From Bifidobacterium breve (lineage in GTDB: Bacteria > Actinomycetota > Acidimicrobiia > Acidimicrobiales > Ilumatobacteraceae), in contig CAMDLK010000012.1 of NCBI GenBank assembly GCA_945901725.1, positions 1-36,053 on the forward strand: a stretch of 36,053 nucleotides of DNA, in the 5' to 3' direction. Position numbers and translations under genes: made by a program. Shown piece by piece: positions 10,877-16,937 of the stretch. The notes under the pieces are model-generated. The model saw only the letters and a program-made list of their open reading frames with translations. It searched no databases and was not told the DNA's origin. Each line of letters opens with the position of its first letter. The first letter of the stretch is position 1.

Positions 10877-11929
10877 TCAGGCGTCGATAATCGCGCGAAG
10901 TTTTTCGATCTGGCCAACTGGGTCTGGACCAATTGGGTTCACTGACAACACAGTGACACCTGACTCCTTGTAGGCAGCAACACGCTCTTTAATGAAACCA
11001 GTCGAACCAACAAGGTTGGCGTTCATGATCCATTCACCAGGAATTGCCGCAGCAGCTTCGGCCTTCTTACCTTCAAGGTAGAAGTCCTGAATGTCAACTG
11101 CTTCTTTTTCAAATCCGTAATCACGGCAGATGTCGTTATAGAAGTTCTTACCGCGGGCACCCATCCCGCCGACATACAACGCCATGTTTGGACGTGCCAT
11201 ATCGAGAATCTTGGTTTGAGCATCACCAGTGAGTGAGTCATCAATAGCCAACATTCCTCCAGCTGAAATTTCAAGACGTGCACGTGATGGATCGCGCTTT
11301 GCAAGACCTGCCTTCAACTGATCTCCCCATACGTTGTGGTAGCGCTCTGGGTAGAACATGATCGGAAGCCATCCGTCAGCCATTTCTGCAGTTGCTTCAA
11401 CGCTCTTGTCTTTCAATGAAGCCCACCAGATGGGGATGTCCTTACGAACTGGGTGGTTGATGATCTTGAGTGCCTTACCAAGACCTGTTCCCTGACCGGC
11501 TGGAAGCGGAATGTCGACGGTCTTGCCGTGATATTCCAATGGTGCTTCACGCGCCCACACATTGCGACACACTTCGATGTATTCCTTGATGCGTTGCATT
11601 GGCTTTTCGTATGGAACACCGTGGAAGCCTTCGATTACCTGAGGTCCAGATGCACCGAGACCAAGAATGAAACGACCATCGCTGACGTAGTCACAACCGG
11701 CAGCTGTCATTGCCATCAACGCAGCTGTACGTGAGTACACATTCACGATGCCAGTACCGATTTCAATGCGATTTGTTTTCGCAGCGAGGTAGCCCACTTG
11801 TGAGATTGCATCAAAGCTGTATGCCTCTGCGATCCACACCTGGTCGAGGCCGGCCTTTTCAAGTTCGACGACCCGGTCGGCGGCTTGCTTGAAGCCATCT
11901 GAATAACTGATTCCCATTGACAATTTCAT
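10877..11929 (-). CDS. LLM-class (luciferase-like) F420-dependent oxidoreductase
   Basis: 350 residues. A luciferase-like TIM barrel: VWIAEAYSFDAISQVGYLAAKT, IEIGTGIVNVYSRTAALMAMTA and GRFILGLGASGPQVIEGFHG are typical of F420-dependent LLM enzymes. The overall sequence resembles the Rv3520c-like group, whose mycobacterial member lies among cholesterol-catabolism genes. It would transfer hydride between F420 and an organic substrate, which is unknown. The start at 11929 is fixed by a strong Shine-Dalgarno site (AGGGAG, about seven bases upstream). The longer open frame to 12136 would cross the divergent hydrolase gene. It forms an operon with the serine hydrolase at 9708-10874. Confidence 0.88.
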   Translation of the reverse strand: MKLSMGISYSDGFKQAADRVVELEKAGLDQVWIAEAYSFDAISQVGYLAAKTNRIEIGTGIVNVYSRTAALMAMTAAGCDYVSDGRFILGLGASGPQVIEGFHGVPYEKPMQRIKEYIEVCRNVWAREAPLEYHGKTVDIPLPAGQGTGLGKALKIINHPVRKDIPIWWASLKDKSVEATAEMADGWLPIMFYPERYHNVWGDQLKAGLAKRDPSRARLEISAGGMLAIDDSLTGDAQTKILDMARPNMALYVGGMGARGKNFYNDICRDYGFEKEAVDIQDFYLEGKKAEAAAAIPGEWIMNANLVGSTGFIKERVAAYKESGVTVLSVNPIGPDPVGQIEKLRAIIDA

Positions 11930-11955
11930 GGATTCTCCCTTGAAGACGTTCCGCA

Positions 11956-11961
11956 ACTCTA
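11956..11961 (-). promoter_or_regulatory. Possible -10 hexamer (TAGAGT) of the oxidoreductase-esterase operon
   Basis: TAGAGT lies 26 bases before the ATG and would give a short leader carrying the AGGGAG site. It is placed in the 106-base divergent region shared with the hydrolase at 12036. No clear -35 is seen. Confidence 0.3.
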
Positions 11962-12035
11962 GAACGACAAGAGTCACCCTTGCGAGTTCTGAGAATCCAG
12001 GTGCCAAATTGCCGATCTGGTGCAACAATGCAGGC

Positions 12036-12923
12036 GTGACAATCACACCGAATACGTTCCATATTTCAACTCGTGACGGCATTTCCCTGCGCATGTTGCA
12101 ATGGTCGTCGGTTGACGAGTCCCCCGGCATTCCCATCCTTCTTATTCACGGTCTTGCGTCGAACGCCCGTCTGTGGGATGGGCCTGCGCGACGCCTAGCG
12201 GAGCTTGGCCACGCAGTAACTGCAATTGACCTTCGCGGACACGGCCTCAGCGACAAACCCGACACCGGATACGACATGGCAAACATTGCCGACGATGTCC
12301 TTGATGTAGTCAACGCGCTCGGTGCACGCCAGCGCAACTGGATACGACCTCTTGTCCTTGGACAATCGTGGGGTGGAAACATCGTGGTGGAGTATGCGCA
12401 TCGATATGGCGACACAATTCGTGGAATCGTTGCTGTCGATGGCGGAAGTATCGAGTTATCAGAAGCGTTCCCTGAGTGGGAACTGTGCAAGGTGACGATG
12501 GCACCTCCAGCAATTGCTGGCATGCAGTACGACAAACTTCGTTCTTATATTCGTGCTGCACATCTTGATTGGAGCGAAGAAGCTATTGATGGCCAGATGC
12601 ACAACATGGAACGCATGGCGGACAACACCATTCGCCCACACCTCACGTTTGATCGACACATCGATGTTTTGCACGGGCTATGGATGCACAAGCCTTCAAT
12701 GTTGTGGTCAGAGATAAAGGTGCCGGTCATGTTTACGCCTGCCTCTCGCTCAGAAGACCACCACACCCAATCGAAACGTGCGCAGATTCAATTCGCACTC
12801 GACAACCTTGCGCATGGCCGAGTCGAATGGTTCACGCCAGCCGACCACGATTTGCATGCGCAGTTTCCATTGCAATTTGCAGGCGTAGTTGACGACGCAA
12901 TTACTTCAGGATTCTTCTCATGA
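12036..12923 (+). CDS. Alpha/beta-hydrolase
   Basis: 295 residues from the GTG at 12036. The oxyanion motif HGLASN, the DLRGHGLSD strand-loop and the nucleophile elbow GQSWGG are all present, and the late PADHDLHAQFP segment supplies the catalytic His. A hydrolase of esters, lactones or C-C bonds is expected; the substrate is unknown. The open frame extends back to an ATG at 11928, but that would overlap the start of the divergent oxidoreductase. The GTG is preceded by a weak AACAAT hexamer at the usual six-base spacing. The last four bases overlap the next gene as ATGA, so the two are translationally coupled. Confidence 0.82.
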   Translation: MTITPNTFHISTRDGISLRMLQWSSVDESPGIPILLIHGLASNARLWDGPARRLAELGHAVTAIDLRGHGLSDKPDTGYDMANIADDVLDVVNALGARQRNWIRPLVLGQSWGGNIVVEYAHRYGDTIRGIVAVDGGSIELSEAFPEWELCKVTMAPPAIAGMQYDKLRSYIRAAHLDWSEEAIDGQMHNMERMADNTIRPHLTFDRHIDVLHGLWMHKPSMLWSEIKVPVMFTPASRSEDHHTQSKRAQIQFALDNLAHGRVEWFTPADHDLHAQFPLQFAGVVDDAITSGFFS

Positions 12924-14203
12924 GCCTTCCGCGCATCCTCGCAATCATGGGCTCGGGCGAAACAGCCCCCACCATGGTCACCACACATCGTCGTCTCACA
13001 ACTTTGCTGCCATCACCAGTGAAAGCGGTCGTACTTGACACACCATACGGGTTTCAGGAAAATGCACCAGAGCTTGCCACAAAGGCCGTTGAGTATTTCA
13101 AGACGTCTATCAATGTTGATCTTGTTGTTGCCGGACTCGTCCGCTTGCACGACACACATATTGCAGCAGACCCCGTAGCAATCGAACGCGGGCTCCGCGC
13201 ACTTTCCGATGCCGACTACATTTTCGCTGGGCCAGGCTCGCCTACCTACGCATTACGTCAGTGGGCAGGCTCGTCTGTTGCTCGAATCATGATTGACAAA
13301 CTCACTAATGGCGGAATTGTGACCTTTGCTTCAGCCGCGGCACTCACACTCGGAAAAGCAACAGTGCCGGTGTACGAGGTGTACAAGGTTGGGCAAGACG
13401 TTCAAGCCCTTGACGGCCTAGACATCCTCGCGGCTATTGGCATCAATGCAGCTGTTATTCCTCATTACGACAACACAGAGGGCGCCAACCACGACACCCG
13501 TTTCTGTTATCTCGGTGAAGCACGTTTGCAGATGTTTGAATCTTTGTTAGATGAAGACACGTACGTACTCGGAGTTGATGAACATACTGGATTAGTAATT
13601 GACCTTGATGCAGCAACAGCCAGCGTTGTGGGCAATAGCAATGTCACCATTCGTTTGCGAACTGAGTCATTCGTATACCCAACTGGATCTGTCATTCCGC
13701 TTTCACTTCTCCAGTCACCCACGTCGTTGTTAACAGGTTCTGGCGATGTATCGTCTCACCATTCCATCGCAACCACGCCTGTTGCGACAATCGCTGAACC
13801 GGCTCAAGCAAACTCACTTGATGCAGTTCTTGATGAATCAATCCTACAGTTTGACCAAGCGATGCAACAGCGTGACGCACTAGCCGCTGTACGTGCAGTT
13901 TTGTCTCTTGAACAAGCAATGCAGGACTGGTCAATCGATACTTTGCAAAGCGATGTGCTTGTGAGATCTCGCAGTGCACTTCGGTCGATGATTAGTCAAT
14001 TGGGTGACGCTGCAGTCGGTGGTGTCCGTGATCCACGAGAAGTAATAGCACCATTCGTTGAAGCCATGCTGTCAGTGCGGGCCACAGTCCGAGCCGAGAA
14101 ACGTTTTGATCTGTCAGACATCATTCGCGATGTATTCGCGTCGCTCAACATAGAAGTGCGCGATACGCCAGCAGGCGCCGAATGGTCACTACCTACTGAA
14201 TGA
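12920..14203 (+). CDS. Peptidase S51/cyanophycinase-like domain fused to a CysS-C-terminal-like domain
   Basis: 427 residues in two parts. Residues 1-250 have the class-I glutamine-amidotransferase-like fold of peptidase S51: IMGSGE at 9-14, FAGPGSPTYAL (102-112), a nucleophile elbow TFASAAAL (135-142, Ser138 in the expected place), PHYDNTEGANHDTRF with candidate His residues, and GVDEHTGLVID (218-228), which matches the GxDExT block of cyanophycinases. Residues about 295-427 end with VRAEKRFDLSDIIRD...IEVRDTPAGAEW. This closely resembles the C-terminal domain of cysteinyl-tRNA synthetase (the stretch that ends DTPxGxxW). No aminoacylation core is present. The gene overlaps the preceding hydrolase by four bases (ATGA) and converges on the ABC permease two bases away. 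It may be a peptidase acting on an isopeptide or aminoacyl substrate, but this is inference. Confidence 0.8.
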   Translation: MSLPRILAIMGSGETAPTMVTTHRRLTTLLPSPVKAVVLDTPYGFQENAPELATKAVEYFKTSINVDLVVAGLVRLHDTHIAADPVAIERGLRALSDADYIFAGPGSPTYALRQWAGSSVARIMIDKLTNGGIVTFASAAALTLGKATVPVYEVYKVGQDVQALDGLDILAAIGINAAVIPHYDNTEGANHDTRFCYLGEARLQMFESLLDEDTYVLGVDEHTGLVIDLDAATASVVGNSNVTIRLRTESFVYPTGSVIPLSLLQSPTSLLTGSGDVSSHHSIATTPVATIAEPAQANSLDAVLDESILQFDQAMQQRDALAAVRAVLSLEQAMQDWSIDTLQSDVLVRSRSALRSMISQLGDAAVGGVRDPREVIAPFVEAMLSVRATVRAEKRFDLSDIIRDVFASLNIEVRDTPAGAEWSLPTE

Positions 14204-14205
14204 AA

Positions 14206-15060
14206 TCAGATGTGGTGCAGGCCAGAGATTCTGGTTCGCCCACGAATTCCGGTGACTGCGTACACCACGATGAACATCAAGGTGCCCGTCAGAATAATAG
14301 TTGCACTTGCTGATGTATCAAGGAAGTACGACAGGTACATGCCGACGAACGCCGATACTCCCCCGATGATTGGCGAGATCCACAACATGCGCGCAAAAGA
14401 GTTTGTCAACATGCGCGCAATGGAAGCAGGAATAACCAAGAGTGCAGAGATGAGAAGGGTTCCGATTACTCGCATAGTCACAAGAATTGTTAGCGACAAG
14501 AGCCCCATGAGCAAGGCTTCAATCCACGCCACGCGAACGCCCGAAACCTGAGCGACCTCAGGGTCAAATGTGGCGAAGAGGAACGCGCGATACAGAGCGA
14601 CGATAATCACAACGCTGAGAATCGCTACTGCAGACACAGCAACGATGTCAATCGTTTTCACACCCAACACACTTCCAAACAGAACTGCTTCAATGCTTTT
14701 CTTGGCCTGGCCATAACGATTCAACAGGGCAAGACCCAACGCAAACGAAGCTGTTGTAACTACTCCGATTGCCGCATCAGCCCCAATCAAGCGCCGGCGC
14801 GCAATGCGGCCGATGATTACACCAGACGCAATTCCCCATACCCCGGCACCGACGAAGTAATTAACATTCATTACAGCTGATGCCGCAGCACCACCAAAGA
14901 CCGCGTGTGAAAGTCCGTGGCCGATGTAGCTCATGCCACGCAACACAACAAACACCCCAAGTAGGCCGCACAATGCGCCGGCAATGGTGGCAACGATGAT
15001 TCCGTTGTTAAAGAACTGATAGCGAAATGGGGTCGTAAGCCCGGCGATTACATGAATCAT
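14206..15060 (-). CDS. Zinc/manganese ABC transporter permease (ZnuB/MntB type)
   Basis: 284 residues with about eight or nine hydrophobic helices. The motif RGMSYIGHGLSHAVFGGAAA near 41-60 is the hallmark of the ABC-3 family that imports zinc or manganese, followed by LLISALLVIPASIARML near the C-terminal half. It forms the membrane channel for the ATPase and binding protein encoded immediately upstream. The ATG lies three bases after the ATPase stop. The 3' end nearly touches the convergent S51-fusion gene. Confidence 0.92.
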   Translation of the reverse strand: MIHVIAGLTTPFRYQFFNNGIIVATIAGALCGLLGVFVVLRGMSYIGHGLSHAVFGGAAASAVMNVNYFVGAGVWGIASGVIIGRIARRRLIGADAAIGVVTTASFALGLALLNRYGQAKKSIEAVLFGSVLGVKTIDIVAVSAVAILSVVIIVALYRAFLFATFDPEVAQVSGVRVAWIEALLMGLLSLTILVTMRVIGTLLISALLVIPASIARMLTNSFARMLWISPIIGGVSAFVGMYLSYFLDTSASATIILTGTLMFIVVYAVTGIRGRTRISGLHHI

Positions 15061-15063
15061 GAT

Positions 15064-15843
15064 TTATGCCAACCGAGACATTCGTTCAGCGATATCAGCG
15101 CCCACCCCATCAACGACAACAGGCATTCCCCCGTGAACAAGGACTTCCATCGGGGCACCGAAAGTTCGTTCGAGAATCTCAGGAGTCATCACATCAACGG
15201 GTGATCCGTCAGCAATGATTTCCAAATTCAAACACACCAGTCTTGGTAAGTGCGCTGCTAATCCATTCAGATCATGGGTTGAGAGAATTATTGACACACC
15301 TTCATCATGAAGGTCAGCTAGTAGGTGAAGCACCTCATGGCGCGTACGAACATCAACGCCAGACGTTGGCTCATCGAGCACCAAAAGCTCTGGGCGGTGG
15401 AACAATGCACGAGCTACGAACACTCTCTGTTGTTGTCCACCAGACAGCTCACGAATATGCCTATTTTCAAGACCCCCGAGACCCAGTCGCTCCAGAACCA
15501 ACAATGCATCTGCACGCTCGTCTTTAGTAACCCGCGGAAGACGACCGACTGAAGACCGTGTCATCACAACCACTTCAAGAACGGTTACCGGAAAATTCCA
15601 GTCAACTGTTTCCACTTGCGGCACGTACCCCATGCGCAAATGTGGCTTTTTCGTTATGTGCCCTTCGACAGGAGTGATTGATCCGAGTATCGCCTTGAGC
15701 AAGGTTGTTTTACCCGAGCCAGACGGACCAACTATGCCTACGAAGTCGCCCTTACGAATTGTGAGATCGATACTCTTAATTGCAAGCGTTGAGTTGTACG
15801 CGCATGACATGTGCGCACATTCAACAAGCACTTCACCAATCAC
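15064..15843 (-). CDS. Zinc/manganese ABC transporter ATP-binding protein
   Basis: 259 residues. Walker A GPSGSGKTT (39-47), Q-loop PQ (75-76), signature LSGGQQQR (133-140) and Walker B LLVLDEP (153-159), with the switch His in STHDL. The region VDWNFPVTVLEVV following the Q-loop is typical of the metal-ABC (ZnuC/MntA-like) ATPases. Its start overlaps the end of the binding-protein gene by four bases, and the permease follows after three bases. The three genes are one translationally linked operon transcribed from 16937. Confidence 0.92.
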   Translation of the reverse strand: MIGEVLVECAHMSCAYNSTLAIKSIDLTIRKGDFVGIVGPSGSGKTTLLKAILGSITPVEGHITKKPHLRMGYVPQVETVDWNFPVTVLEVVVMTRSSVGRLPRVTKDERADALLVLERLGLGGLENRHIRELSGGQQQRVFVARALFHRPELLVLDEPTSGVDVRTRHEVLHLLADLHDEGVSIILSTHDLNGLAAHLPRLVCLNLEIIADGSPVDVMTPEILERTFGAPMEVLVHGGMPVVVDGVGADIAERMSRLA

Positions 15844-16937
15844 TGCGGATAGGTCGCCTTGTCTGAAATCTTCGCGTCAATGGAAACGGCTTTCAATGCT
15901 GTTGCATCTCCACCGAGCGCTTCAACAATCGTGATGTAATTGAACTTCATCAGCCCAGCCCACGAATGTTCTGCATCTCCTGGCTCGCCTGGCAGGTCAT
16001 CGTCGCGCAAGACATCGATGTAGCGAACGCCAGTTTCTTTACCAATTTGCTCAAGGACGGTAGACGGAAATACTTCACTTCCGAAAATAGCCTTGACCTT
16101 CTTCGACTTCACTTGATCAATTAGTGAGGCAATATCTTTCGGTGATGGCTCTTCAAACGACTGTGGCTGAATAGCACCAATCACTTCATATTCGAAGTGA
16201 CGTGCAAAATACGCGTAGGCATCGTGGTACGTCAGCAGGTTTCTGTCGTTGGCAGGAATCGTTGCCGTGGCCACCTTCATTGCCTCATCAAGATTCATCA
16301 CGAGCCGTGAAACGAGCACGTAGTTTTCGTCGTACTTGTCAATATTGGTTGGGTCAGCATTTACAAGAACATTGCGGATGGTTGACAAATATGGCAAAAC
16401 GTTTGGAGGGTTTGTCCACAAATGCGGATTAGGTTTACCGCCGTCTTTCGGGAAAGAAAAATCGTAGATCCAATCACTTTCAGCAAGAGATGATGTTCCT
16501 AATTCACAGATGACGGCTTTAGGTGCATTGGCTTTAGCCAACTCAAGAGTTGGGTCTTCAAGCTTCATTCCATTCACAAAAATGATGTCCGCCGTTTCAA
16601 GCGTTGCTACAGAACTTGGTGGAGGTTCAAAAGTGTGTGAATTGGTTCCCTCAGGAACAATGCCTTGCACGATTGGCCCGATGTCGCCCGCTAGCAGCCC
16701 GACCAGATTTGTGATGGGAGCAACGGTAGACACGACACGCACTGGACGCCCCTTAATTTCTGCACCCGCCATGCAATCCGCTCCGGCCTCTTGCAGTTTT
16801 GCTTCAGAGACAGCTGGGTCACTGATGTTTCCTTGGCTGAGATCATCTTTCGGTTGCTCTACTGAATTATTGGACGAGCAACTAACCAGAGAAAGGCACG
16901 AAATAACGAGAGCGGCAGTAAGGACATTTCTACGCAT
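15840..16937 (-). CDS. Zinc/manganese ABC transporter substrate-binding lipoprotein
   Basis: 365 residues. A lipoprotein signal peptide ends with lipobox LVSC (Cys20), so the mature protein is tethered to the outer face of the membrane. Candidate metal ligands are His101 (SHTFEP), His172 (NPHLW) and His238 (YHDAYAYF), with an acidic residue in FGSEVF. A His at the third position is typical of ZnuA-like zinc binders, where manganese binders have Glu, so zinc is the better guess. The long His-rich loop of classical ZnuA is absent. A TAACCT hexamer lies six bases before the ATG. I looked for a Zur-type palindrome in the short upstream region and saw none. Confidence 0.9.
   Translation of the reverse strand: MRRNVLTAALVISCLSLVSCSSNNSVEQPKDDLSQGNISDPAVSEAKLQEAGADCMAGAEIKGRPVRVVSTVAPITNLVGLLAGDIGPIVQGIVPEGTNSHTFEPPPSSVATLETADIIFVNGMKLEDPTLELAKANAPKAVICELGTSSLAESDWIYDFSFPKDGGKPNPHLWTNPPNVLPYLSTIRNVLVNADPTNIDKYDENYVLVSRLVMNLDEAMKVATATIPANDRNLLTYHDAYAYFARHFEYEVIGAIQPQSFEEPSPKDIASLIDQVKSKKVKAIFGSEVFPSTVLEQIGKETGVRYIDVLRDDDLPGEPGDAEHSWAGLMKFNYITIVEALGGDATALKAVSIDAKISDKATYPQ

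Follow-up and report, generated by a model that had tools for sequence, protein, structure and literature searches.

The closest described relatives of the two halves of the protein reported here are serine hydrolases of the S51 fold, such as peptidase E and cyanophycinase, and cysteinyl-tRNA synthetase (CysRS). Cyanophycinase has a substrate pocket with the residues Gln101, Asp172 and Gln173 (PMC3235067). In the E. coli CysRS, G34 of the tRNA is gripped by Arg427, Asp436 and Trp432 and is contacted via water by Arg423, according to the passage of PMC12684709 that cites Hauenstein 2004. CysRS relatives with a new role have been described in mycothiol ligase (MshC) and in CysRS*, a UGA-reading CysRS without the anticodon domain (PMC9437257). 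Freestanding editing factors are represented by YbaK, a Cys-tRNA-Pro deacylase described as a single domain that acts autonomously and carries no anticodon module of a synthetase (PMC3973320). Our analysis of contig CAMDLK010000012.1 (the window, i.e. the whole analysed stretch of 36,053 nucleotides) revealed a gene of 427 amino acids (ATG start, positions 12920-14203, + strand) that joins an S51-fold hydrolase (residues 1-264) via a disordered linker to a CysRS-type C-terminal region (residues 300-424). Like MshC and CysRS*, the fusion protein is a CysRS relative that appears to have taken on a new role, but while these two keep the catalytic core, the fusion keeps the anticodon domain and lacks the core. 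Both domains are known; their combination carries no name among the Pfam and NCBIfam models searched, no publication describing the architecture was found in the literature searched, and within these sources it is apparently undescribed.

The S51 domain (positions 12920-13711) is recognised by sequence and by predicted structure. Pfam Peptidase_S51 (PF03575) matches residues 88-228 with E 2.8e-4 and 21.1 bits, just below the cut-off of 23.9, and matches 30 of 40 homologues at E up to 1. The family profile hits 6nqc, a cyanophycinase-like exopeptidase, at E 4.5e-6, and the AlphaFold2 model (mean pLDDT 80.6) matches the same structure in Foldseek at E 3.6e-12, with a structure comparison giving Z 24.6 over residues 1-264 and an rmsd of 2.7 over 230 residues. 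In the profile alignment to 6nqc, Ser138 in FASAAAL (13331-13333) falls on the S51 nucleophile, and His182 in PHYDN (13463-13465) and Glu221 in GVDEHT (13580-13582) fall on the positions of the catalytic base and the third triad residue. All three are present in 102 of 102 aligned proteins and invariant in the 49 members that share less than 75% identity. The fusion thus has the S51 fold and the conserved Ser-His-Glu positions, although it is only 12-19% identical to the S51 structures listed. It further departs from S51 proteins in that the nucleophile is followed by SAA instead of the usual SAG, in that PHY stands in place of the DQH motif, and in carrying an additional conserved segment (NxEGxxHDTRxCYLG). 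The preliminary description had suggested that the altered elbow may change the activity; SAA is invariant in the fusion family, and the predicted triad is complete. Directly in front of the predicted catalytic His stand Ile-Pro and not Asp-Gln. The equivalog cut-off of the cyanophycinase model TIGR02069 was missed (13.8 versus 126.6 bits).

The linker (residues 265-299, positions 13712-13816) is of variable length and mostly of low confidence in the model, with pLDDT <50 at residues 275-297. It is followed by residues 300-375 (positions 13817-14044), which make up the helical part of the C-terminal CysRS region, and by a CysRS-type anticodon-binding mini-domain (CysS_C, residues 376-424, positions 14045-14191), the former recognised by TIGR00435 and the AlphaFold2 model and the latter by Pfam, the family profile and alignments. 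The NCBIfam cysS model TIGR00435 aligns its positions 345-464 of 466 to residues 299-423 (E 9.7e-5) and matches 40 of 40 homologues; the score is 21.6 bits versus 340 and the match is limited to these model positions, the class I catalytic core being absent. The profile of the C-terminal family finds solved CysRS structures at 7.3e-10 (8qhp), 1.8e-7 and weaker, and in the window protein PF23493 stays below its cut-off (12.6 versus 23). With the C-terminal model alone, Foldseek places the E. coli CysRS:tRNA-Cys complex (1u0b) first with probability 0.99, at an E of only 0.011 and an rmsd of 15.4; CysRS was not among the 50 matches listed by VIA-align for the same model, where helical bundles dominate. 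Full-length structural comparison with CysRS gave Z 7.8 and an rmsd of 16.0. The link of the C-terminal region to CysRS rests on the sequence profiles, on Foldseek and on this full-length comparison. Compared with CysRS (PF23493 and the end of TIGR00435), the last ~46 residues align without gaps and with the G34-contact residues kept, whereas the Rossmann aminoacylation core and the zinc site are missing, the helical part is shortened in distant members and a hydrolase is attached. A separate CysS and an MshC-like gene are encoded elsewhere in the same genome. Searching this incomplete genome with a tRNA-Cys pattern yielded no tRNA, a result that carries no weight for or against the readings below. 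The preliminary description, made from the letters of the DNA, had proposed an S51 layout for the N-terminal half and a CysS-type end with no synthetase core, and both assignments are borne out by the matches above. The outcome that it had named as refuting the C-terminal assignment, a structure prediction lacking any CysS-type domain there, did not occur; its motifs GSGE, ASAAA with Ser138, GVDEHTG and FDLSDIIRD...DTPAGAEW all occur where it had put them.

The fusion is widespread but patchily distributed. A single contig scan yielded 284 confirmed relatives, and the best 80 of them are mostly labelled Ilumatobacteraceae, Acidimicrobiaceae or unclassified actinobacteria. In a class-wide sample, 89 of 198 genomes had a match with E no higher than 1e-3, part of these matches being CysS itself, and a phylum sample of 396 genomes gave full-length or split matches in several further families. 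Full-length copies occur across Acidimicrobiia, in other Actinomycetota and on Streptomyces and Nonomuraea replicons; those on Streptomyces plasmids and on a large Nonomuraea record show 36-40% identity and are hypothetical proteins where annotated. In one family with genomes of about 1.1 Mb (f21) the fusion is found in 33 of 42 genomes, including 8 of 8 that are ≥90% complete. A survey of the domain pair across actinobacteria, as suggested in the preliminary description, found both halves together in every inspected copy, which indicates an ancient fusion whose halves are hardly ever separated. Copies in independent genomes exclude an assembly chimera, and a phage origin was rejected because phage records gave no match. 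In one genus (g15; G055, G063, G099, G102) the fusion and the CysS gene share a contig and are ~6-7 kb apart.

Across members, the spacing between the two functional parts ranges from 64 to 161 residues. In the shortest forms the helical part is largely gone and the anticodon mini-domain is retained. Distant members in general have a reduced or missing helical part and still possess the mini-domain, which marks the mini-domain as the part under selection. An ungapped HMMER alignment to the E. coli CysRS places Arg423, Arg427, Trp432 and Asp436 on R387, R391, F396 and D400 (positions 14078-14119). Among the 125 C-terminal positions of the 49 members with less than 75% identity, only 387, 391, 400, 403, 415 and 422 are invariant, and position 396 is aromatic in all of them. 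Three of these six invariant positions (387, 391 and 400) are G34 contacts in the cited passage, and residues adjoining the contact set vary among fusion members. Triad and G34-contact set are both intact in 100 of 102 aligned proteins, the two departures being an R391K exchange (L075) and a C-terminus that ends before W422 (L192). D415 (positions 14162-14164) is likewise conserved and aligns to Asp451 of the E. coli CysRS, which we take to be a further tRNA contact. With Asp451 counted, four contacts among six invariant positions correspond to a hypergeometric p of 1.5e-6; with only the three invariant contacts of the cited passage p is ~6e-5. This enrichment is no independent test of tRNA binding, because CysRS proteins at large conserve these residues as well.

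A comparison with CysS from the same organisms is informative in this respect. In CysS of Ilumatobacteraceae, the positions of E. coli 423, 451 and 458 are occupied by Leu, Thr and Val/Ile/Leu (LRFDTV or LRFDTI), and in the same genomes the fused copy keeps the equivalents of all three. The fold can therefore tolerate the loss of several of these residues, and folding alone does not account for why the fusion conserves them. The loss of the Arg423, Asp451 and Trp458 equivalents is seen in L129, the CysS of the genome studied here, and in L130-L137 and L159-L162, in genomes with the fusion as well as in those lacking it.

The simplest reading of this conservation would be a hydrolase that docks on tRNA-Cys. 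As the pair of hydrolase and anticodon reader is kept across many actinobacteria, it suggests an uncharacterised enzyme working on or through tRNA-Cys. The CysRS homology, the retained G34 contacts, the mini-domain outlasting the helical part and the maintenance of the gene in genomes of ~1.1 Mb all speak for such an enzyme, while a net acidic C-terminal region (-8 in the window protein), the patchy distribution and the lack of a constant translation gene neighbour speak against it, and G34 contacts alone do not single out tRNA-Cys among G34 tRNAs. On balance we consider docking on tRNA-Cys to be somewhat more probable than not. The preliminary description had guessed at a tRNA- or aminoacyl-linked peptidase; the strict conservation of the residues that would contact the anticodon makes this guess more credible. 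Our leading full mechanism, to which we give rather less than an even chance, is that of an S51 serine hydrolase that would dock on tRNA-Cys and act on a tRNA-bound group. The CysRS-derived module would bring the hydrolase to a tRNA with the anticodon GCA, and the S51 serine hydrolase would then act on an attachment of this tRNA, most simply on an aminoacyl or peptidyl moiety carried by its 3' end, which would make the protein a trans-acting deacylase or editing-type enzyme. We infer the binding to tRNA-Cys, and more weakly the action on a tRNA-bound group. With only ~64 residues from the S51 domain to the mini-domain in the short forms, it would be harder to reach the 3' end some 70 Å away, unless a dimer helps. 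If the deacylase reading is right, YbaK-type factors would work in a similar manner, with an unrelated fold.

The acidic C-terminal region would also fit a reuse of this module for protein contact, dimerisation or binding to the ribosome or other RNA, with the S51 half being an ordinary hydrolase of small peptides or isopeptides. This reading is supported by the peptidase activity of those S51 relatives whose function is known, and by gene neighbours that are unrelated to translation. A role without RNA, however, does not predict that the G34 contacts of the cited passage stay invariant amid adjoining residues that vary, and we regard this reuse as unlikely, if still to be taken seriously.

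An anticodon set retained beside an S51 hydrolase could also be part of a sensor, in which tRNA-Cys binding would control the hydrolase and open a stored or scavenged source of amino acids when cysteine is short. A comparable logic is known from GCN2, where a synthetase-like domain regulates an enzyme. The shortest forms, which put the hydrolase near the anticodon side, might be accommodated more easily in this way, and a CysK match is absent from 8 of 8 f21 genomes tested. An anticodon reader by itself, however, is blind to whether a tRNA is charged or uncharged, and CysK-type genes occur in all sampled fusion-bearing genomes outside f21, so that we think such a sensor distinctly unlikely. 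A general link to cysteine auxotrophy was likewise rejected, as the eight genomes of f21 are the only ones without CysK. These genomes of ~1.1 Mb (G005, G011, G017, G025, G029, G033, G041, G049) have kept selA. A link to selenocysteine mischarging was considered and dropped, as selA is present in 31 of 45 genomes with the fusion and in 11 of 22 without it, a comparison that gives a Fisher p of 0.18 and is confounded by kinship. The selA of the genome studied here is found in two pieces (G000:C86:4857-5387 and G000:C11:36007-36792), possibly owing to a contig break.

The genomic neighbourhood differs between lineages. In the window, the gene of an alpha/beta-hydrolase (positions 11928-12923, + strand) precedes the fusion gene, its stop overlapping the start of the latter by 4 nt; its own start codon is uncertain, most of its relatives having ~295 amino acids. 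The translational coupling noted in the preliminary description is real, but it is not general: the alpha/beta-hydrolase is found directly upstream mainly in Ilumatobacteraceae and, beyond these, in two families (G134, G046), mostly with overlaps of 4 or 1 nt, and is missing next to most of the distant members. Neighbours in other lineages are a methyltransferase with an AAA/cytidylyltransferase, DUF2017, prephenate dehydratase, glycosyltransferases or lycopene cyclase, and no tRNA or translation gene was a constant neighbour among the inspected loci. What stays the same from lineage to lineage is the fusion and not its surroundings. Where the overlapping gene does occur, one might think of a transferase, in which the S51 serine would take the cysteinyl group from Cys-tRNA-Cys and pass it to an amine, with the alpha/beta-hydrolase acting on the product. 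Cyclodipeptide synthases use their serine to accept an aminoacyl group from tRNA, and a serine nucleophile next to a tRNA-Cys module would suit a similar step, but with the partner gene missing beside most of the distant members and no biosynthetic cluster constant around the fusion gene this appears improbable. The preliminary description had also imagined an enzyme acting on mycothiol-like cysteine conjugates, and the genome studied here does have an MshC-level match (409 bits), but counts from bit scores show such a match to be absent from 17 of 45 fusion-bearing genomes and MshC to be present in at least 18 of 22 fusion-free ones, a phyletic pattern that largely refutes the link and leaves this reading hardly any probability.

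Some further features of the loci were recorded. Convergent with the fusion gene, znuABC-type zinc uptake genes are encoded in the window at positions 14206-16937 (- strand) and are kept in ~50 related loci. A zinc link was rejected, since the znuABC genes downstream of the fusion in Ilumatobacteraceae are encoded on the other strand and the ABC genes near the f21 copy belong to a CbiQ-type transporter and not to ZnuB. The Streptomyces plasmid copies L180 and L183 are located near a group of DUF4331, TPR, nickel-transporter-like and class F sortase genes, and a Phd/YefM and PIN toxin-antitoxin-like gene pair lies directly downstream of the fusion in L046, L048 and five further loci.

In the most far-reaching reading, which we hold to be possible but rather doubtful, the protein would represent a new class of tRNA-Cys-dependent enzyme, an S51 hydrolase whose synthetase-derived anticodon reader directs it to substrates bound to tRNA-Cys. 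It might, for example, clear wrongly loaded or over-loaded tRNA-Cys, and we know of no counterpart for this tRNA. If the tRNA reading is true, evolution would have made a tRNA-guided enzyme out of a peptidase fold. An anticodon module would also have been separated from its synthetase and would have stayed tightly constrained, even in organisms in which the copy within the synthetase has decayed. The protein would then hint at a step so far overlooked in the decoding of cysteine, in tRNA quality control or in the sensing of cysteine in actinobacteria, among them organisms whose genomes measure ~1.1 Mb.
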